Part shown: one piece after another, positions 5,054 to 29,759 of the stretch
How the letters are laid out: each line of letters begins with the position of its first letter
Position numbering within the stretch: position 1 is the stretch's first letter
Virus record (IMG/VR): IMGVR_UViG_3300042400_001151
Coordinates: 1-29,898 of that record
From: a virus
DNA: 29,898 nt
Strand: one strand, 5' to 3'
Translations under genes and position numbers: made by a program
Notes under the pieces: model-generated
What the model saw: the letters and a program-made list of their open reading frames with translations, nothing else
Told to the model about the DNA's origin: nothing
Databases searched by the model: none

Positions 5054-5728
5054 ATGACTACTGCTGTATATAGAACTGCCACTGAAGTAAACGATGCTAT
5101 GTTGCGTGTTTACAATTATATGTTTTTGGCCATTGTGATCAGTGGCATTGTGAGTTATTTTGTAGGGACAAGTCCAGATCTGTTGAAGTTTTTCTTTACT
5201 GGTTGGATCAAATGGATTGTGATATTTGCACCCTTGGTTGCTGTAATAGGTATTGTATTTGCCATGGCTACCAAACCTCCACGTGAGTTGGCCCTCCTAA
5301 TGTTGGCTGGATTCAGTGCCTTAATGGGTTTGAGTTTTGCCATGATCTTTGCTGTGTTTACTCTGGGCAGTATTGCAATGGCATTCATGTCAGCGGCTGT
5401 GTTGTTTGGTACCATGAGCTTGTACGGGTATTTCACTAGACGAGATCTCACCAGCATTGGTCAGTTCCTGTTCATTGGCCTGATTGCTGTGGTCATTGCC
5501 AGTGTCATCAATGTGTTTGTGGGCAGTAGTGTAATGACCATGGTTATCTCGGCCATTGCTGTGATTGTGTTTACTGGACTCACTGCGTATGACACACAGA
5601 AAATTCGTGAGATGGTTTCAGAAGAAACATCTGGATCAGTTGAAGTCATGGGTGCGTTGACCTTGTACTTGGACTTTATTAACATATTCCTGAGTCTGTT
5701 ACAACTGTTTGGTGGGAAGAAAGATTGA
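5054..5728 (+). CDS. Bax inhibitor-1 / YccA-type membrane protein
   Basis: A 224-residue polytopic inner-membrane protein of the BI-1 (YccA/YbhL) family, with about seven hydrophobic segments from residue 22 to the end. Family markers are GLSFAMIFAVF, the TGLTAYDTQKI motif before the last segments, and the C-terminal ALTLYLDFINIFLSLLQL. Bacterial relatives form calcium-leak or proton-linked channels and interact with the FtsH protease. AAGGAGAAAGC precedes the ATG. In a phage it could modulate membrane stability or FtsH during infection, which is inference. The stop overlaps the next start. Confidence 0.9.
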   Translation: MTTAVYRTATEVNDAMLRVYNYMFLAIVISGIVSYFVGTSPDLLKFFFTGWIKWIVIFAPLVAVIGIVFAMATKPPRELALLMLAGFSALMGLSFAMIFAVFTLGSIAMAFMSAAVLFGTMSLYGYFTRRDLTSIGQFLFIGLIAVVIASVINVFVGSSVMTMVISAIAVIVFTGLTAYDTQKIREMVSEETSGSVEVMGALTLYLDFINIFLSLLQLFGGKKD

Positions 5729-7814: not shown

Positions 7815-8310
7815 ACCCAGTACCAGTCCAGAACGCGACGACTTTGCCAAGTCGTTGGAGGACGACGATCAACGGCTGAATTTTTTACAAAGCATGAGTG
7901 AAATGAAAAAACAGCAAGAGTCTGATCCTGAGTGGCAAAAAGACAATCTCGAATGGGATCTGCGTACCAGCGTCAAGATGGTGGGTTGTGTTCGTGACAG
8001 CGAAATCTACGCACAAAATCTATATGCTGCTATGTGTAATAGGGAATTTCAACGCAACGACACTTGGCCCCGATTAACTGATCAAGTATGGAGTTGCAGT
8101 TGGCGTTATGCTGGTGGTATTGTTGCTGACATGTGTGGTAAAGGCGATTACATGGATTGGTACTGTTCGGGCATACGCAACGACGGATACCAAGATGACA
8201 CTGATGTTGCTTACCCCGCAGGGTTTGTAGCCGAAGGTGTGGTCACTGACGAAATACGTGCGGACCTGTTTGAACTGGGATGGTTGGTGATTGACGATGC
8301 AAAAGATTAA
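7792..8310 (+). CDS. Phage protein of unknown function
   Basis: A 172-residue protein. The N-terminal 50 residues are charged and helical (RDDFAKSLEDDDQRLNFLQS). The folded part has a Cys/Trp-rich core (SCSWRYAGGIVADMCGKGDY, MDWYCSGIRNDGY), and the C-terminus reads VTDEIRADLFELGWLVID. The segment GFVAEGVVTDEIRADLFELG resembles small conserved phage proteins, but I cannot name it. ATG 7792 has GGAGCG upstream; a longer frame from 7726 runs through the previous gene and is less likely. The end overlaps the first array gene by 14 bases. Confidence 0.65.
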   Translation: MTKDRSTKPSTSPERDDFAKSLEDDDQRLNFLQSMSEMKKQQESDPEWQKDNLEWDLRTSVKMVGCVRDSEIYAQNLYAAMCNREFQRNDTWPRLTDQVWSCSWRYAGGIVADMCGKGDYMDWYCSGIRNDGYQDDTDVAYPAGFVAEGVVTDEIRADLFELGWLVIDDAKD

Positions 8311-8533
8311 AACTACAGATGTCTATCGTGCTAGAGATTGTGTCCAATGGCTGATAAAAAATATAGGGCCCGAAGTCAGTGTACAGGGATCAAGTATTCA
8401 GAGCCTAGGCTGGCATCTGTGGACGCAGGGTTCCACTCGCGACGGCCGGGTTGATCCACCAGTTTATATTATCGAAGTGAATGACCATGTAGATGATGAT
8501 ACACAACTATTGTTTGCATTGAAATGGTCGTGA
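8297..8533 (+). CDS. LRWS-tail array protein 1 of 9
   Basis: A 78-residue protein opening a tandem run of nine divergent paralogues. The N-terminal half has RDCVQWLIKNIGPE, matching the array's W-x-x-x-N/K element, and the C-terminus is DDDTQLLFALKWS, a conservative variant of the FxLRWS tail. The middle (SLGWHLWTQGSTRDGRVDPP) is longer than in other members. An in-frame TTG at 8291 is possible, but ATG 8297 is preferred. The last codons are written ATTGAAATGGTCGTGA, so the next gene's GTG overlaps the stop. Confidence 0.65.
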   Translation: MQKIKTTDVYRARDCVQWLIKNIGPEVSVQGSSIQSLGWHLWTQGSTRDGRVDPPVYIIEVNDHVDDDTQLLFALKWS

Positions 8534-8730
8534 CTACTGTATACTTGGCGGCTGGTAGTGATTTTGACGGCATGATCGACTGGGCTGTAGATAACTGTAC
8601 CAGCTTTGTTGGGTATCGGATGCTGGAACTGGATTACGAAGAAAAAGTCGTCCGGGACTGTTGGTTTAAATTGGAAATTGAGTTTGGCGATCCACAAGAC
8701 CAAACACTGTTTGAGTTGAGGTTTGGATGA
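8530..8730 (+). CDS. LRWS-tail array protein 2 of 9
   Basis: A 66-residue paralogue. It shows GMIDWAVDNCTSF near residue 15 (the W-A-x-x-N-C element shared with member 5) and ends EIEFGDPQDQTLFELRFG. I chose GTG 8530 because every other junction of the array has the same four-base NTGA overlap; an in-frame ATG at 8524 would lengthen the overlap by six bases. The tail is encoded by TTGAGGTTTGGATGA, which supplies GAGGT before the next start. Confidence 0.68.
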   Translation: MTTVYLAAGSDFDGMIDWAVDNCTSFVGYRMLELDYEEKVVRDCWFKLEIEFGDPQDQTLFELRFG

Positions 8731-8948
8731 CATATCACAAAATCATGTCGGATCTATTTAATCGGTATCTGTTTGAGCCTTGGGACAAGGTGACACAGCA
8801 AGCCATGGAACGTGACTTCAGAGCTGCTTGCCCAGGTCCATACTTTTTAGCCTGGCGTTCAGAGCTGGATGATGATCACATGCCCCGGTACAATTTGATA
8901 TTTGCTGATCCTCGAGACGCAACTGCTTGGTACTTGAGGTGGACATGA
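8727..8948 (+). CDS. LRWS-tail array protein 3 of 9
   Basis: A 73-residue paralogue with FEPWDKVTQQAMERDF in the first half and the tail LIFADPRDATAWYLRWT. The ADPRDAT element matches the D-x-x-x-A-T element before the tail in other members. ATG 8727 overlaps the stop of member 2 by four bases. Its own end reads TTGAGGTGGACATGA. Confidence 0.7.
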   Translation: MTYHKIMSDLFNRYLFEPWDKVTQQAMERDFRAACPGPYFLAWRSELDDDHMPRYNLIFADPRDATAWYLRWT

Positions 8949-9142
8949 TACGCTTACCCGTTGAACCTTACTGGGTTAATGCTGCTGAATGGTGGTTGGC
9001 CAACCACAACAGCAACACAGAAGAATTTTGTTACTGGCTGTACACTCAAGGTGTGTTTCCGGTTAAACGCCAAAGTTTTTACCCTTGGATTGAGTTTGAG
9101 GATCCCGAACAGGCCTTGATGTTTCAGTTGAGGTGGTCATGA
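8945..9142 (+). CDS. LRWS-tail array protein 4 of 9
   Basis: A 65-residue aromatic-rich paralogue (YWVNAAEWWLANHNSN, then EFCYWLYTQG) ending IEFEDPEQALMFQLRWS. ATG 8945 overlaps the previous stop; a longer in-frame reading from 8927 would lie on the previous gene's tail codons. Its end, TTGAGGTGGTCATGA at 9128-9142, is one of three exact copies of the junction motif. Confidence 0.7.
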   Translation: MIRLPVEPYWVNAAEWWLANHNSNTEEFCYWLYTQGVFPVKRQSFYPWIEFEDPEQALMFQLRWS

Positions 9143-9327
9143 AAAGCACAAGAGTTACATTACCTTACGATATATTTTGGACACCGTTGGATTGGGCCAA
9201 AGAGAATTGTCCAAGTTACATTACCAACAATCTTCATCGGAACAAGGATGGTATCGATCCAGGTAGAATTGATTACTTTTTCGGCGACGCAGCAGAAGCC
9301 ACTGTGTTTGCGTTGAGGTGGTCGTGA
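9139..9327 (+). CDS. LRWS-tail array protein 5 of 9
   Basis: A 62-residue paralogue with IFWTPLDWAKENCPSY, closely matching member 2 in the W-A-x-x-N-C element, and the tail YFFGDAAEATVFALRWS. ATG 9139 overlaps the previous stop by four bases. It ends TTGAGGTGGTCGTGA (9313-9327), giving the next gene a GTG start. Confidence 0.7.
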   Translation: MKSTRVTLPYDIFWTPLDWAKENCPSYITNNLHRNKDGIDPGRIDYFFGDAAEATVFALRWS

Positions 9328-9521
9328 GAACTTTTCGTGGCTGGTATGTTGCCAGCGTCATGCCACCGGAAATCACTCCATATCGTGGATGGCTACCTTG
9401 TATCGACTGGTGCGAACAAAAGTTTGGGCCCAGTGGCCAGGATTGGTTGTACAACAGCGAGGGTGTATTTGAATTTAAAAATGACGCAGATCGTACAATG
9501 TTTGCGTTGAGGTGGTCATGA
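9324..9521 (+). CDS. LRWS-tail array protein 6 of 9
   Basis: A 65-residue paralogue with WLPCIDWCEQKFGPSGQDW and the tail VFEFKNDADRTMFALRWS. The W-C-E-Q-K-F element pairs it with member 9 (W-C-Q-A-K-F). The start is GTG 9324, at the usual NTGA overlap; an upstream in-frame codon at 9318 is less likely. It ends in an exact TTGAGGTGGTCATGA (9507-9521). Confidence 0.7.
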   Translation: MRTFRGWYVASVMPPEITPYRGWLPCIDWCEQKFGPSGQDWLYNSEGVFEFKNDADRTMFALRWS

Positions 9522-9712
9522 TAAAAACTCGGTATAAATGTAGATACCCGACCGAGGTCGACGTTAAAGAAAGAGAAGAAATTCTTCAGGAACTCTGGCC
9601 AGGACTCCGACTGGCACCTGGGGTCTGGGATTTTGTCACCAACGAATGGTTATATACAATATGTTTTGAGCAGGAAAAAGACTACACTTGGTTTATGTTG
9701 AAACAGAGATGA
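9518..9712 (+). CDS. LRWS-tail array protein 7 of 9 (most divergent)
   Basis: A 64-residue protein whose tail is FEQEKDYTWFMLKQR, so the LRWS ending has been lost although phenylalanine and leucine keep their places. The first half is charged (TEVDVKEREEILQELWPG). Its DNA tail, TTGAAACAGAGATGA, also lacks the GAGGTGG run, so the next gene has only a weak ribosome binding site, though the ATGA overlap is kept. Confidence 0.66.
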   Translation: MIKTRYKCRYPTEVDVKEREEILQELWPGLRLAPGVWDFVTNEWLYTICFEQEKDYTWFMLKQR

Positions 9713-9930
9713 ATCGAGTCAACCTCAAAGCTTATCCCAGATTCTGGACGGATTTTGCGGATCGCGTCAACGAACAGATTGATCCAAGTGCGCCTGTGTC
9801 GGGGCATGACATCAAACGTTGGATGCAGTCCTGGTACGGCATAAATGTACATATAATGCATTCAGGTTCCTTGGGAGAGGTTTACATGGTGGGTCGGGAT
9901 TACACAGCGTTTGTATTGAGGTGGTCATGA
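9709..9930 (+). CDS. LRWS-tail array protein 8 of 9
   Basis: A 73-residue paralogue with YPRFWTDFADRVNEQ in the first half, a central KRWMQSWYGINVHIMHSG and the tail YMVGRDYTAFVLRWS. The RDYTAF-x-LRW ending aligns with member 7 (KDYTWF-x-L), suggesting these two are sister copies. It ends in an exact TTGAGGTGGTCATGA (9916-9930). Confidence 0.7.
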   Translation: MNRVNLKAYPRFWTDFADRVNEQIDPSAPVSGHDIKRWMQSWYGINVHIMHSGSLGEVYMVGRDYTAFVLRWS

Positions 9931-10100
9931 GCGAAGTAGAACTGGATCAATACCAAACAAAAGAACTGGATCAAATGATCAATTGGTGTCAAGCCAAGTT
10001 TGCTGCCGGTACTTGGAAGGTCATATTTGACGAACACAGCACTAGATTTCAGTTTGACCGTGGTCGAGATGCTGTGGCTTTTTTGCGACACTGGAAATAA
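9927..10100 (+). CDS. LRWS-tail array protein 9 of 9
   Basis: A 57-residue protein closing the array. It has LDQMINWCQAKFAAGTW, very like member 6, and the tail RFQFDRGRDAVAFLRHWK, a variant without the final serine. It ends in TAA instead of TGA, is not overlapped by another gene, and is followed directly by a promoter, so the junction motif is lost exactly where it is no longer needed. Confidence 0.68.
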   Translation: MSEVELDQYQTKELDQMINWCQAKFAAGTWKVIFDEHSTRFQFDRGRDAVAFLRHWK

Positions 10101-24605: not shown

Positions 24606-24634
24606 TTGACAACCTAGTCGTTTGTGTGTATAAT
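24606..24634 (+). promoter_or_regulatory. Consensus-like promoter of the omega gene
   Basis: TTGACA (24606-24611), 17-base spacer, TATAAT (24629-24634). Both boxes are perfect. It lies directly after the phosphoesterase stop. Confidence 0.88.
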
Positions 24635-24663: not shown

Positions 24664-24906
24664 ATGGCTCGACTCACTAGCGAACTGGCAGCAGCCGCAG
24701 TTGGCAACAAATACGATTTAGTGTTGATTGCTTCGCGACGAGTACGCGAACTCCGACGTGGCTGGCATCCTAAAGTGGTCTGCAACAACGATCTTCCGGT
24801 CACTGCCCTGCGTGAAATTGAAGCCGGCTTGATTGGGCGCGACTACTTGCTGAAGCCACGCACACTAGATCGTCGAGAACGGCCGCCTGAGGACGAGGCT
24901 AAGTAA
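24664..24906 (+). CDS. rpoZ: RNA polymerase omega subunit homologue
   Basis: An 80-residue protein that matches the omega (RpoZ) layout: MARLTSE, then GNKYDLVLIASRRVRELRRG (bacterial omega: N-R-F-D-L-V-L-x-A-x-R), CNNDLPVTALREIEAGLI (bacterial: N-D-K-...-A-L-R-E-I-x-x-G-L-I), and a charged C-terminal tail. Omega clamps the beta-prime subunit and aids RNA polymerase assembly and ppGpp response. A dedicated consensus promoter and AAGGAATC before ATG 24664 suggest strong early expression. It could replace or compete with host omega; that is inference. Confidence 0.85.
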   Translation: MARLTSELAAAAVGNKYDLVLIASRRVRELRRGWHPKVVCNNDLPVTALREIEAGLIGRDYLLKPRTLDRRERPPEDEAK

Positions 24907-24926: not shown

Positions 24927-25085
24927 ATGATCCAGCATTTGAAAGAAAACAACATGACATATTTTCAGCATTTATTTTTTGCGCTGAAAATAGCAGGAAG
25001 CTTGGTGATACATGCTGTTCTGCCTTGGTTTTTCAAAACTTATGCCAGTGATCATTTATGTAATCGTAATCAACTCAAGGAGTAA
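24927..25085 (+). CDS. DUF6356-like small membrane protein
   Basis: A 52-residue protein: MIQHLKENNMTYFQHLFFAL, then KIAGSLVIHAVLPWFFKTYA and SDHLCNRNQLKE. It has one hydrophobic segment with HLFFAL and HAVLPWFF, a pattern (HLxFA...HAxxPxxF...S) that I recall from the DUF6356 family. CGGAGATGG precedes ATG 24927. It ends two bases before the next start; both may form a small membrane pair. Confidence 0.6.
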   Translation: MIQHLKENNMTYFQHLFFALKIAGSLVIHAVLPWFFKTYASDHLCNRNQLKE

Positions 25086-25087
25086 CA

Positions 25088-25294
25088 ATGAAGATTTTAA
25101 TTATATTGGCAATACTAGCAGTGGCATATTTGGTGTATCGTGCTGTCACAGTTGAAGCTGTAATTGAATTACCAGCCGAAGCGTCAGAACCCGAAGCTGC
25201 GCCTGTGGTTAAAACCATGAGCGATTCAGTCAAAGCAGCAATTGCTATCAGTATCACTGCTGCCGCTGTTGTTGCTGTGGCATTTTTGATGTAA
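25088..25294 (+). CDS. Small bitopic membrane protein
   Basis: A 68-residue protein with two hydrophobic ends: residues 3-16 (ILIILAILAVAYLV) and 50-67 (AIAISITAAAVVAVAFL), joined by an acidic linker (ELPAEASEPEAAPVV). ATG 25088 has AAGGAG upstream. It is not recognised. The tmRNA gene follows immediately. Confidence 0.62.
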   Translation: MKILIILAILAVAYLVYRAVTVEAVIELPAEASEPEAAPVVKTMSDSVKAAIAISITAAAVVAVAFLM

Positions 25295-25589
25295 AGAATT
25301 GTTGTATGAAGTGAAGAGAAAAGTGTTTTGGACGGGGGTGCAAATCCCCCCACCTCCACCTAAGTATATTGTGTAGTATATTTAGGTGGGGGTGTACTCA
25401 GTATTCGACAGGGCAAAGAGTATCAGAATGGACAACACGAGACAGAGACTCGCTAAAAGTAAACAACCATAAATGCAAACGATAGCATTTTTGGAGAAGA
25501 ACGCCTAGCAGCGTGATCACTCCCGGGGTAGGAAATACCTTGTAATCAAAACCACCTGATAGGGTCACTTTTATAGTGGCCCTTTTTTT
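25295..25589 (+). ncRNA. ssrA: Circularly permuted two-piece tmRNA
   Basis: tmRNA rescues stalled ribosomes and tags their products. The order here is permuted: the acceptor piece comes first, with T arm GGGGG-TGCAAAT-CCCCC and CACCTCC plus ACC (25334-25360). A 27-base intervening hairpin follows (25361-25387), and then the 5' piece GGGGGTGTACTCAGTATTCGA, whose GGGGGTG pairs with CACCTCC. The tag frame at 25475-25516 reads ANDSIFGEERLAA and TGA, and ends in LAA as tags must. The left boundary is uncertain. The T loop lacks the second T of TTCRANY. Two-piece forms are known in some betaproteobacteria. Confidence 0.86.
25562..25589 (+). terminator. Rho-independent terminator of the tmRNA
   Basis: GGGTCAC (25562-25568) pairs with GTGGCCC (25576-25582) with one T-G, and is followed by seven T (25583-25589). 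Confidence 0.88.
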
Positions 25590-25594
25590 GTGGT

Positions 25595-25602
25595 TATAAA
25601 TA
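25595..25602 (+). promoter_or_regulatory. Possible T4-late-type promoter octamer
   Basis: TATAAATA, identical to the T4 late promoter -10 octamer, lies 26 bases before the GTG of the next gene. No sigma70 -35 box is nearby. A single short match may be chance. Confidence 0.3.
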
Positions 25603-26081: not shown

Positions 26082-27224
26082 ATGAAACTTAATAAACTAT
26101 CGGCTGCGGTATTGGCCACAATGGCACTGGGCACTACTGCTCAAGCTCAATCGTCTGTGACACTGTATGGTCTCATCGACGGCGGCCTACGCTACCAATC
26201 AGTCAGCCTGGCCAACAGTGATGCCGTCACCAATATTGGTGGTGCTTATGGCGTACAGTCCGGCAACAGATTCGGCATTCGCGGCGTTGAAGATCTCGGC
26301 AACGGTAACCGTGCAATGTTTCAATTGGAAAACGGGTTCGACCTTGGCAACGGTACTAGCCAACAAGGCGGCCGTATGTTTGGTCGTGCAGCATGGTTTG
26401 GTCTTGAGAACAAAGGCTGGGGCGATGTTCGCCTGGGTCGTATGACCAACTTGGCCAGTGATTGGTTAGTAGGCGGTGTAGATCCATTTGCAGCCGGCTT
26501 TGGTCAGTTGAATATGGGCCATGCTTTTACATCCGGTAACACCTTGCGCTTAGACAATACCTTAATGTATCGTTCACCTGTTATGAGCGGTGTTCAAGCT
26601 GGTTTGGGATATTCGTTTGCCACTGGCTTGGCCTCTAATGGTGGCACAACAGGCTACGGGTTTGAGACATCAAACAACACACGTCAAATCACAGCTGGTT
26701 TGAAGTATGCTGCAGGTCCAGTTTATGCTGCCGCTTCTTATGACAAGGCCTATGCTGCCGAGTCATCGGCACAAAACGGACAGTCAGTTAACAACTGGAG
26801 CTTGGGTGCTTCTTATGATCTGAAAGTTGTGAAATTGGCAGCTGGTTACGGACAGACACGTGACGGCTTCTGGGCCGGGTCAGGTGCAGGTGGCACAGGT
26901 GCATCACTGGCAACAGGTCCAAACGGCAATACCAGTGCGTTGGTATTTGCTCCTGGTGTTGGCTACAACAGCTACATTGTTGGTGCTACTGTTCCTGTTA
27001 ATGCTGTGAGCCGTGTCATGGTTTCTTGGACAATGATTGCTCCCAACACCAACATGAAAGATGCTTACAACGCACAGAACCAAACGTCATACAACTTGGG
27101 TTACACATATGACTTCACCAAGCGTACAAACCTGTATGCTTACGTTGGTCAAAGTGTAAACTACGCCACTGTCGATACTGCCAAGAGCACTGTGGTCGGT
27201 GTTGGTATGCGTCACCAGTTCTGA
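26082..27224 (+). CDS. Outer-membrane trimeric porin (Burkholderiales type)
   Basis: A 380-residue beta-barrel porin. The signal peptide is MKLNKLSAAVLATMALGTTA, cut after the following QAQ. The mature start SSVTLYGLIDGGLRYQS is the hallmark of betaproteobacterial general porins, and the final strand ends VGVGMRHQF with the C-terminal Phe needed for BAM assembly. Other family segments are SGNRFGIRGVEDLGNGNRAM and GRAAWFGLENKGWGDVRLGR (before the constriction loop). It has its own strong promoter. A phage-linked porin could change permeability, block rival phages or provide a receptor decoy; none of this is shown. Confidence 0.93.
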   Translation: MKLNKLSAAVLATMALGTTAQAQSSVTLYGLIDGGLRYQSVSLANSDAVTNIGGAYGVQSGNRFGIRGVEDLGNGNRAMFQLENGFDLGNGTSQQGGRMFGRAAWFGLENKGWGDVRLGRMTNLASDWLVGGVDPFAAGFGQLNMGHAFTSGNTLRLDNTLMYRSPVMSGVQAGLGYSFATGLASNGGTTGYGFETSNNTRQITAGLKYAAGPVYAAASYDKAYAAESSAQNGQSVNNWSLGASYDLKVVKLAAGYGQTRDGFWAGSGAGGTGASLATGPNGNTSALVFAPGVGYNSYIVGATVPVNAVSRVMVSWTMIAPNTNMKDAYNAQNQTSYNLGYTYDFTKRTNLYAYVGQSVNYATVDTAKSTVVGVGMRHQF

Positions 27225-27238
27225 TCTAAAGGATAACA

Positions 27239-27784
27239 ATGAAAGCATTATTGGCAATTCTGTTATCCTCTATCGCTGCCCTGGCCAGTGCTCAAAGCAC
27301 TCCAGGGTATGTGACAGACAGTTCAGGCAAAGTTGTAAAGACCGGAAGTGACTTGTGTTTGCGTACAAGTTCGTGGACCTCAGCTTCGGCTGTAGAAGGC
27401 TGCGATCCTGTTGCAAAACCCCGAGCACCTGTTGTTACAGTAATTGATGCAGGCGTGCTGTTTACGTTTGATAGTAGTGTGTTGACCAAGGCAGGACAAG
27501 AAGCTTTAAATGCTTTGGTCAAACAGATCAAACCTGGCAACACTGTCAGCATTGTTGGACACACTGATCGAATTGGTGCTGCCAAGTACAATCAATCACT
27601 TAGCGATGCTCGCGCACGTTCAGTGGCTGCTTACTTGAGTTCCAAGGTCAAGGCCAACTACGCTGTCAACGGTGTCGGTTCAACTCGTCCATCGGGCAAG
27701 ACAGCACAGTGTACTGGTGCAGTCAATCAGAAATTAATTGATTGCTTGGCACCAGACCGTCGTGTGGTGATCACCATTCTGTAA
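27239..27784 (+). CDS. OmpA/MotB-domain outer-membrane-linked protein
   Basis: A 181-residue protein. A signal peptide (MKALLAILLSSIAALASAQS) is followed by a short N-terminal part with a Cys pair region (DLCLRTSSWTSASAVEGCDP), then the C-terminal OmpA-like domain: GVLFTFDSSVLTKAGQEAL, SIVGHTDRIGAAKYNQSLSD and ARARSVAAYLSSK, ending DRRVVITIL. The D-x-x-G-x-x-x-Y-N-x-x-L-S-x-x-R-A pattern binds peptidoglycan. No beta-barrel is present. It is 14 bases after the porin, so the two are probably one operon. A strong terminator follows. Confidence 0.93.
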   Translation: MKALLAILLSSIAALASAQSTPGYVTDSSGKVVKTGSDLCLRTSSWTSASAVEGCDPVAKPRAPVVTVIDAGVLFTFDSSVLTKAGQEALNALVKQIKPGNTVSIVGHTDRIGAAKYNQSLSDARARSVAAYLSSKVKANYAVNGVGSTRPSGKTAQCTGAVNQKLIDCLAPDRRVVITIL

Positions 27785-27809
27785 ACGTACACTAATTAGC
27801 GTACACCTT

Positions 27810-27835
27810 AATCCCGCTTCGGCGGGATTTTCTTT
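27810..27835 (+). terminator. Rho-independent terminator of the porin-OmpA operon
   Basis: AATCCCGC pairs with GCGGGATT around a TTCG tetraloop, followed by TTTTCTTT. Very stable. Confidence 0.92.
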
Positions 27836-27904
27836 GTGTGTATATAACTTATATTCCATTAACAGTAAATATAATGCAGGTAAAAAATAACAGGAGCGTT
27901 TACA

Positions 27905-28351
27905 ATGAGAACCGTGCTGACAGCATTGCTGGCACTAACGGTCGTAGGCGGCAGTACACAAGCCAGCGAGTTAGTGCATCAGTTTGCAAGCCCAGCCTTC
28001 AGTGGCCAGGGCTACTCGGCACATGTGTTGACCATAGAACAACTAGAAGCACAGCGTCGACAAAAACTCAAAGACGAAAAACAATCAGCCATAGACAAGG
28101 CCGAGCGTGATGCCAAGAACACCACCTTGGCCAAGTTTATTGTAAACTTAGAGTCAAGAATCTATGCTCAACTCAGCAAGCAGTTGGCCGACAACATGTT
28201 TGGTGAATCTGACAAGACCACTGGCACTTTGGATTTTCAAGGCAGCAGTATTACCTGGTTCAAGAATGGCAGTTCGGTGACACTGACCATTATAGACACC
28301 AATGGCAGTAGAACAGAAATCACCGTACCGATCTCGAGTTTTGCGTTCTAG
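27905..28351 (+). CDS. csgF: Curli assembly protein CsgF
   Basis: A 148-residue CsgF-like protein. In bacteria CsgF binds CsgG at the outer membrane and helps the nucleator anchor curli fibres. The signal peptide is MRTVLTALLALTVVGGSTQA. The mature N-terminus ELVHQFASPAFSGQGYSAHV matches the F-x-N/S-P-x-F element that binds CsgG. The middle TLAKFIVNLESRIYAQLSKQ and the C-terminal TLDFQGSSITWFKNGSSVTL plus TEITVPISSF fit the family. An extra Lys-rich coil (QLEAQRRQKLKDEKQSAID) follows the N-terminal element. It leads the csgF-csgG-curlin unit. Confidence 0.83.
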   Translation: MRTVLTALLALTVVGGSTQASELVHQFASPAFSGQGYSAHVLTIEQLEAQRRQKLKDEKQSAIDKAERDAKNTTLAKFIVNLESRIYAQLSKQLADNMFGESDKTTGTLDFQGSSITWFKNGSSVTLTIIDTNGSRTEITVPISSFAF

Positions 28352-28352
28352 T

Positions 28353-29126
28353 ATGCGTATCTTAGCCCCTCTCTTACTTGCCTTGACCCTGGGCGGGTGT
28401 GCTCATATACACATGGAGGCTGCCAAAGAAGAGCCTGTGGAAATTAAGCCACGTGTGAATCTCATTGAAAAGATTCCGCCCTTGGATGGCCCTGTAATTA
28501 CTGTGGCAGTGTATGGGTTTGCTGACAAGACCGGACAACTAAAGCCCAATGACAAGTTGGCTGTGTTTAGCAAGGCTGTAACGCAAGGTGCCGAAGTATT
28601 CTTGATCAAGAGTTTGAAAGATGTACCTGGTTGGTTTCGTGTGGTTGAACGTGTAGGATTAGATAATCTAATCAAGGAACGGCAGTTGATCAGAAACCAA
28701 CGTGAAGTTTACGAAGGCAAAGATGCCAAGCCACTAAAGCCCATGATAGTGGCTGGACTCATAATAGAAGGTGGCATCATTGGTTATGATAGCAACATAA
28801 GATCTGGCGGCAACGGTGCTAGAATTCTGGGAATTGGCGGAAGCCAGCAGTATCGGGTTGATGAGGTAGTAGTGAGCATAAGACTCATATCTGTCAACTC
28901 AGGGGAAGTGCTGATCAGCAACAGCATCTCCAAAACAATATACAGTACAGCTCATACCTTGGGCGCACTGAAATTCTTTGACTCGGCTACCATGAGCGTG
29001 GAATTGGAAAACGGTGCAACCTTGAATGAGCCCACAACTTATGCAGTACGTGTGGCCATTGAGCAGGCTGTGTATGAAATGATCATGAGCGGAGAACGTT
29101 CGGGTCTATGGCGGTTCAAAAAATAA
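28353..29126 (+). CDS. csgG: Curli secretion channel lipoprotein CsgG
   Basis: A 257-residue CsgG homologue, the nonameric outer-membrane channel that exports curlin subunits. The lipobox is LLLALTLGGC, and the mature region opens with a KPRVNLIEKIPPLDGPVITV stretch. Family motifs are VAVYGFADKTGQLKPND, WFRVVERVGLDNLIKERQLI, VAGLIIEGGIIGYDSNIRSG and the strand GEVLISNSISKTIYST. Length is near the E. coli protein (277). ATG 28353 follows the csgF stop by one base; longer frames run through csgF. Confidence 0.92.
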   Translation: MRILAPLLLALTLGGCAHIHMEAAKEEPVEIKPRVNLIEKIPPLDGPVITVAVYGFADKTGQLKPNDKLAVFSKAVTQGAEVFLIKSLKDVPGWFRVVERVGLDNLIKERQLIRNQREVYEGKDAKPLKPMIVAGLIIEGGIIGYDSNIRSGGNGARILGIGGSQQYRVDEVVVSIRLISVNSGEVLISNSISKTIYSTAHTLGALKFFDSATMSVELENGATLNEPTTYAVRVAIEQAVYEMIMSGERSGLWRFKK

Positions 29127-29147
29127 TAATAATAAAAGGAGCACAAA

Positions 29148-29759
29148 ATGCTTAAACGTTTAGGAATCATGACAGTCATGGCTGCCCTGTTTTGGGGTTC
29201 AGGAGTTCAGGCCAACGATGTTTACATTGAACAGGTAGGCGATGGTGCCACTGTGACCATAACACAAGATGGAAGTAGTAATCGTATAGGCACCAGTAAC
29301 ACACCGTCTATTTTCAAAGGTGATGCCAACTTGGTAACTATTGATCAGATTGGCAGCTCAAATGAGTTAGACATTGTGATCAACGGCACTGCTGTCACTG
29401 CAATTGTAACTACCAATGGCAGCAACAATATACAGACCATAAACTGCGGAACTGCTAACACAGCCAGCTGCGGAAGTTCGTTTATCAAACAACAAGTTGA
29501 TGGTGACAACAACACAGTGACACAAAACTTGGTGGCAGCGTCGACACAGCACAGTGAGATCTTGATAACTGGTGACTATAACACAGTGACTCATACTACA
29601 TCAGGATCTGGTGCACATTCTGGAATCATAACTGTCACGGGTGGTATAGCACTTGGCGGTAATACCATTAGCTTAACACAAGGCGGAACCAATGCACAAC
29701 AAGCAACTATTACGTCAACTGGTAACAGCAACTCTATTACTGTCAATCAGTCCAACTAG
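29148..29759 (+). CDS. Curlin-repeat fibre subunit (CsgA/CsgB-like)
   Basis: A 203-residue secreted protein with signal peptide MLKRLGIMTVMAALFWGSGV plus QA. The mature part is a series of degenerate curlin repeats of about 22 residues with Gln, Gly and Asn at fixed positions: VYIEQVGDGATVTITQDGSS, LVTIDQIGSSNELDIVINGT, NTVTQN and NTISLTQGGTNAQQATITST, then GNSNSITVNQSN. Two cysteines in the middle are unusual for curlin. It could be the major subunit or the nucleator. AAAAGGAGCAC precedes the ATG. Its end is overlapped by the next gene. Confidence 0.85.
   Translation: MLKRLGIMTVMAALFWGSGVQANDVYIEQVGDGATVTITQDGSSNRIGTSNTPSIFKGDANLVTIDQIGSSNELDIVINGTAVTAIVTTNGSNNIQTINCGTANTASCGSSFIKQQVDGDNNTVTQNLVAASTQHSEILITGDYNTVTHTTSGSGAHSGIITVTGGIALGGNTISLTQGGTNAQQATITSTGNSNSITVNQSN

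Follow-up and report, generated by a model that had tools for sequence, protein, structure and literature searches.

Phage-borne tmRNA genes, including those of the two-piece form, have been catalogued in several studies. The 2022 paper on the OM43 phage Melnitz listed 402 phages carrying a tmRNA; among the 133 distinct structures represented, 53 were two-piece, and 50 of those 53 were marine or aquatic. The paper already described tmRNA and csgGF in one phage (PMC9004378). A 2025 database comprises 79 unique phage tmRNAs and introduced the Rfam model RF04321 (PMC11915505). Furthermore, tmRNA together with SmpB is reported for huge phages in another paper (PMC7162821). A permuted tmRNA beside tRNAs and an omega homologue was regarded as unusual for a phage in the first-pass annotation of the DNA analyzed here, a view that does not survive these counts: in addition to the 53 two-piece structures (PMC9004378), approximately 70 further permuted tmRNA calls were obtained in IMG/VR with one strict pattern, and permuted tmRNAs scored above the cut-off in 17 of 26 curli-bearing related phage contigs and in six of eight in another checked set.

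The window, i.e., the whole stretch of 29,898 bases analyzed here, is the complete IMG/VR virus record IMGVR_UViG_3300042400_001151 and represents a 29.9-kb fragment of a phage genome. A permuted two-piece tmRNA gene is located at 25299–25560 on the plus strand, where ARAGORN calls it as tmRNA* with the tag ANDSIFGEERLAA. The covariance-model search proposed in the first-pass annotation places this gene above the cut-off in both relevant Rfam models, namely tmRNA_permuted RF04321 (117.9 bits, cut-off 47, E 1e-22, model positions 1–213) and beta_tmRNA RF01850 (101.8 bits, cut-off 84, E 3.7e-30), and a chance match is excluded because of these E-values. A sequence from another freshwater metagenome (L061) is 99.8% identical to the window over 11,237 bp and represents the same phage; since it was assembled independently, the window tmRNA is no assembly accident. 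A blastn search of the window tmRNA against 50,697 phage records returned nothing, or chance matches only (E up to 10). The original description of a permuted two-piece tmRNA in a phage context is thus upheld by the ARAGORN call, both Rfam models, and a syntenic contig bearing the T4-type capsid protein gp23. As judged from its sequence, the gene very probably encodes a functional two-piece tmRNA that is carried by a large T4-like phage from fresh water and that, while of the permuted type known from betaproteobacteria, belongs to a lineage specific to phages.

The anatomy of the two pieces agrees with the order first described, the acceptor piece lying 5′ of the coding piece. Briefly, the 5′ part of the acceptor piece (25299–25333; Rfam) consists of a P2 strand and a D-loop-like region with the TTGTTGTATGAAG..GTGTT motif common to the phage-only group discussed below, followed by the T arm GGGGG-TGCAAAT-CCCCC (25334–25350) and the acceptor 3′ strand CACCTCC (25351–25357), both supported by Rfam and covariation, and by the discriminator A, CC, and then T (25358–25361), such that the CCA is incompletely encoded. 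The intervening sequence of 26–27 nt (25361/25362–25387) lengthens the acceptor stem by 13 bp and closes with a 4-nt loop. The coding piece begins with the acceptor 5′ strand GGGGGTG (25388–25394; Rfam and covariation) and contains the first stem of PK1, CGAG/CTCG (25438–25452), the ARAGORN-called tag reading frame for ANDSIFGEERLAA with its TGA stop (25475–25516; GCA..GCG TGA), and the 3′ pseudoknot region (25525–25557), and an intrinsic terminator is predicted directly 3′ of the tmRNA (25561–25589), so that the tag frame, stop, and terminator are placed as previously noted; all of these features lie on the plus strand. The seven-base acceptor strands, which had been proposed to pair across a 27-base hairpin, do so at seven of seven positions, including the G3-U70 wobble, and the intervening hairpin and acceptor stem of the precursor form a single 20-bp helix. 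The folding z-score of the full precursor (−3.94) is mostly owed to this helix, and the coding piece, when folded freely by itself, yielded no significant signal (z −1.41).

A separate observation concerns the spacer of another permuted phage tmRNA (L179:1537–2085, contig G031; tag ANESVYQLAA, acceptor CCGGTCC/GGGCCGG). An ORF of 152 aa lies complete within its intervening sequence of 531 nt and matches the HNH endonuclease model marginally (Pfam HNH, 20.0 bits; cut-off 21.4), and split hits similar to L179 are present on contig G019 (L178/L180). This ORF possibly encodes a homing endonuclease lodged in the spacer that is removed from a permuted tmRNA; a single literature search found no report of an endonuclease ORF in such a spacer.

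Conservation of the structure was assessed in 16 distinct phage tmRNAs, most of which were obtained from the covariance model rather than from a fixed stem pattern. The acceptor and T-stem cells pair in 100% of cases in this set, double-sided changes amount to 33 compared with 9.5 in shuffles, and the structures break down when slid out of register. Acceptor stems include GGGGGTG/CACCTCC in the window, GGGGCTG/CAGCTCC in the related contig L142, and GGGCCTG/CAGGTCC among the other phage relatives, and all 16 have U·G at position 3, i.e., the alanine signal G3·U70 does not vary among them. On this covariation, the tRNA-like domain of the window tmRNA is under selection. Intact pseudoknots, which the first-pass annotation had named as supporting evidence, are found only in part: the first helix of each is supported, whereas the 3′ pseudoknot forms two of four pairs in its second helix and a second helix of PK1, although looked for in the window tmRNA, is not evident. 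The PK1 first stem varies in step with that of two relatives (CGAC/GTCG in L142 and L165). In 11 hand-cut rows, a procedure biased towards structure (the MAFFT alignment was left unused owing to a one-column shift), the first helix of the 3′ pseudoknot (GGTA/TACC in the window) is 100% paired and covarying (GGTA/TACC, GGCA/TGCC), and the second is well supported in the relatives. The weak second helices would suit a decayed pseudogene; however, the acceptor stem, T arm, tag frame, and terminator are complete and covariation extends across the relatives, rendering decay very improbable. The readings as a chance match or a pseudogene were both rejected in accordance with the Rfam scores and covariation.

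The tRNAs and omega homologue mentioned as neighbors in the first-pass annotation were both recovered. ARAGORN and Rfam combined yield 28 tRNAs between 11.6 and 22.6 kb of the window, and an RNA polymerase omega homologue of 80 aa (24664–24906, plus strand; Pfam RNA_pol_Rpb6, 1.5e-12) precedes a small DUF6356 ORF (24927–25085, plus strand; Pfam) and a 68-aa ORF with no function assigned by Pfam search (25088–25294, plus strand), which lies directly upstream of the tmRNA. A sigma-70 promoter with a perfect consensus (TTGACA-17-TATAAT, 12/12; 24606–24634, plus strand) is located ahead of omega and is present at the same position and score in L142; therefore, omega, the DUF6356 ORF, the 68-aa ORF, the tmRNA, and the terminator likely constitute one transcription unit. 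Ten sigma-70 promoters matching 11–12 of the 12 consensus bases are found in the window, all on the plus strand (7280, 10107, 11589, 12634, 15955, 16760, 18470, 23612, 24606, and 26008), compared with 0.85 in shuffles. The number of TATAAATA late-type boxes in the window, one of which lies at 25595, is not above chance (2 vs. 0.93 expected).

Several additional features of the region are of note in their own right. Of 21 related phage contigs, 6 have an omega homologue that scores above the cut-off, and in at least L142 it adjoins the tmRNA. Downstream of the tmRNA, a phage-borne Porin_4 porin, an OmpA-family protein, CsgF, CsgG, and a curlin-repeat (amyloid-type) protein are encoded at 26082–29759; pelagimyophages are said in published papers to be without csgA/B, and the Melnitz record nonetheless has curlin-repeat proteins beside csgG. 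A Bax inhibitor-1 family membrane protein is encoded at 5054–5728 (Pfam Bax1-I, 3.5e-57), and approximately nine small tandem ORFs at 8291–10100, mostly with a similar C-terminus (..F.LRWS / ..FALRWS), apparently represent a duplicated small phage protein family.

The closest syntenic relative, L142, is IMG/VR contig 3300044535_002275 (159.5 kb), which carries gp23 and retains the gene order phosphoesterase, omega, tmRNA, porin, OmpA, csgF, csgG, and curlin-repeat protein, with identities to the window of 86% (omega), 59% (porin), 57% (OmpA), 86% (csgF), 91% (csgG), and 82% (curlin-repeat protein). Relatives of CsgG occur at 63 viral loci, the contigs being up to 364 kb long, and gp23 is encoded in 11 of 21 related contigs, that of L142 included; on these gene contents, the setting is a large T4-like phage. 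The clade has no close isolate, the best CsgG match being 49%, and the porin shows at best 33–37% identity to seven betaproteobacterial-type genomes, which points to no particular host. The adjoining porin, OmpA, and curli genes are bacterial-looking and might suggest that the gene was taken up from a bacterium only recently, or that a piece of bacterial chromosome was wrongly assembled or binned as viral. Such an origin is extremely improbable considering the near-identical second assembly, the conservation of the whole block on a gp23-bearing contig, the viral contigs that share CsgG, and the nearest tmRNAs, which are those of phages; contamination was rejected on the synteny and the second assembly. 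In a tree of 79 tmRNA cores, the bootstrap of which had not settled, the window groups with L142 and L165 (100/95) within a phage-only group of 12 (84/98), and the bacterial permuted genes, sampled as 7 pattern hits and 15 genomes above the cut-off out of 399 of the order, fall outside that group. Within this sampling, the tree argues for a phage lineage of the window tmRNA and not for recent capture.

SmpB was detected in none of the 21 related phage contigs, compared with 10 of 14 control genomes, although the gene could lie outside the contigs as assembled; the phage tmRNA presumably uses the SmpB of its host. If the phage tmRNA must share SmpB with the host, as its absence from these contigs implies, it might compete with the host system, either by titrating host SmpB or by altering the fate of host products, and a precedent exists in the proposal for the tag-less tmRNA of mycobacteriophage DS6A (PMC4131195). 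By contrast with DS6A, which has a tRNA-like domain only and no coding part, the window phage has an intact tag frame, and almost all relatives retain varied tag frames, nearly always with an -AA end, which a decoy would not need. Competition of this type is therefore quite unlikely. The most likely role of the tmRNA is to provide additional rescue capacity during infection, together with the phage tRNAs; it is less likely to act as a decoy or in re-routing.

The tag ANDSIFGEERLAA comprises 13 aa in an open frame from the resume codon to the stop and has a hydrophobic end of the -LAA type. A search of 84,980 prokaryote genomes with the degenerate pattern ANDxxFGEERLAA returned no match, and in IMG/VR the pattern matches only L061, i.e., the same phage, and L145/L156 (tag ANDAYFGEERLAA); thus, the window tag is unrecorded, in line with its initial description as new. 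It had further been described as longer than the common type, which is correct with respect to the usual 10 aa, but it is short compared with the 22–31 aa of sister phages. Phage tags are mostly 9–31 aa, although ARAGORN sometimes gives only the last 8–10 aa of long ones, whereas the tags of the fetched bacterial permuted genes are 10 aa, except for the doubtful call L206. Tags of 22–31 aa were observed in L038, L072, L161, L163, L164, L166, L167, L155, L170, and the marine L006–L078 groups, and several of them consist of an N-terminal extension and a canonical 10-aa tag, such as ANADTFEFGALNFTGNTVGA+ANEGRFALAA in L038 and ANANTTEETMTFTWDLPV+ANESAYALAA in L072. Odd tags are accordingly the rule in related phages, and the 13 aa of the window are a mild departure in which LAA is retained.

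These tags may represent a functional change, in which FGEERLAA or the longer extensions direct products to another protease or adaptor or slow their destruction. The phage-to-bacterial difference in length, the occurrence of FGEERLAA in two phages with otherwise different acceptor stems, and its absence as a pattern from the prokaryote genomes are consistent with such a change; the retained LAA end and the freely varying interiors of known tmRNA tags speak against it, and it is considered unlikely, if less so than competition for SmpB. Different routing of the tagged products to ClpXP or adaptors is conceivable but not supported by these results. A broader proposal, that the tmRNAs of large freshwater T4-like phages form a separate lineage no longer bound to the 10-aa tag of bacteria, whose tags of 13–31 aa would mark rescued products for handling unlike that of host-tagged ones, is doubtful, slightly more so than the functional change itself.

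With rescue capacity as the preferred role, the following course is proposed by analogy with established tmRNA biology. Early in infection, the promoter at 24606 would be used by host sigma-70 RNA polymerase, with transcription running through omega, both small ORFs, and the tmRNA precursor and ending at the terminator at 25561–25589. Host RNase P and tRNA 3′ processing would then excise the intervening hairpin of 26–27 nt, and the CCA-adding enzyme would complete the acceptor end, of which ACC-U is encoded, leaving two pieces that remain associated through the acceptor stem and P2. AlaRS would charge the tmRNA through G3-U70, and host SmpB, with EF-Tu, would deliver it to ribosomes stalled on truncated mRNA, such that alanine and ANDSIFGEERLAA are added to the unfinished protein, which would be passed to ClpXP-type proteases. 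Together with the approximately 28 phage tRNAs, the tmRNA may keep ribosomes available during mRNA destruction, as a phage-lineage ribosome-rescue RNA produced together with the omega/tRNA block.

Among known systems, the beta-type permuted tmRNAs (RF01850) of the Azospira, Accumulibacter, and Propionivibrio loci (L147–L152) share with the window the gene order, GGGGGTG/CACCTCC, G3-U70, the ACCTAAG..TTAGGT extension into the intervening hairpin, the CCTTGT-AA-CAAA motif, and the terminator, and in bacterial genes such as L149/L150 the intervening hairpin likewise prolongs the acceptor stem. The window differs from them in its phage-lineage 5′ piece (TGTATGAAG..), its weaker 3′ pseudoknot, and its 13-aa tag in place of ANDERFA(I/L)AA. 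Phage Melnitz (MZ577097; PMC9004378), a T4-like myophage, similarly encodes a permuted tmRNA with csgF-csgG-curlin downstream; ssrA in this record lies approximately 4–5 kb upstream of the csgF-csgG-curlin repeat genes, and there is therefore a precedent for curli genes close to a permuted phage tmRNA. However, the Melnitz tmRNA is reported as alpha-type, under a glutamine riboswitch, with the tag ANDNYVPVDYALAA (PMC9004378), no omega or porin is annotated beside it, and its CsgG is 49% identical to that of the window. L142 differs from the window in its tag (AANDELFLAAA), whereas L145/L156, despite a different tag, end in FGEERLAA as in the window (L156); the acceptor stems of L142 and L145/L156 are changed in compensating pairs and their intervening sequences are 86–88 nt. 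The huge phages resemble the window in having tmRNA within an expanded translation gene set, and permuted beta-type genes are not described in the available part of that paper (PMC7162821). The window tmRNA is beta-type and lies beside omega and a porin, in a group of freshwater relatives without isolates, and its tag is unrecorded. With this locus, the known two-piece tmRNAs of phages gain a well-supported member that is beta-type and of a phage lineage; such genes are common (17 of 26 checked contigs) in uncultured large freshwater curli-bearing phages with no SmpB found. This renders testable whether a phage tmRNA provides extra rescue capacity only or whether divergent tags alter the fate of rescued proteins.
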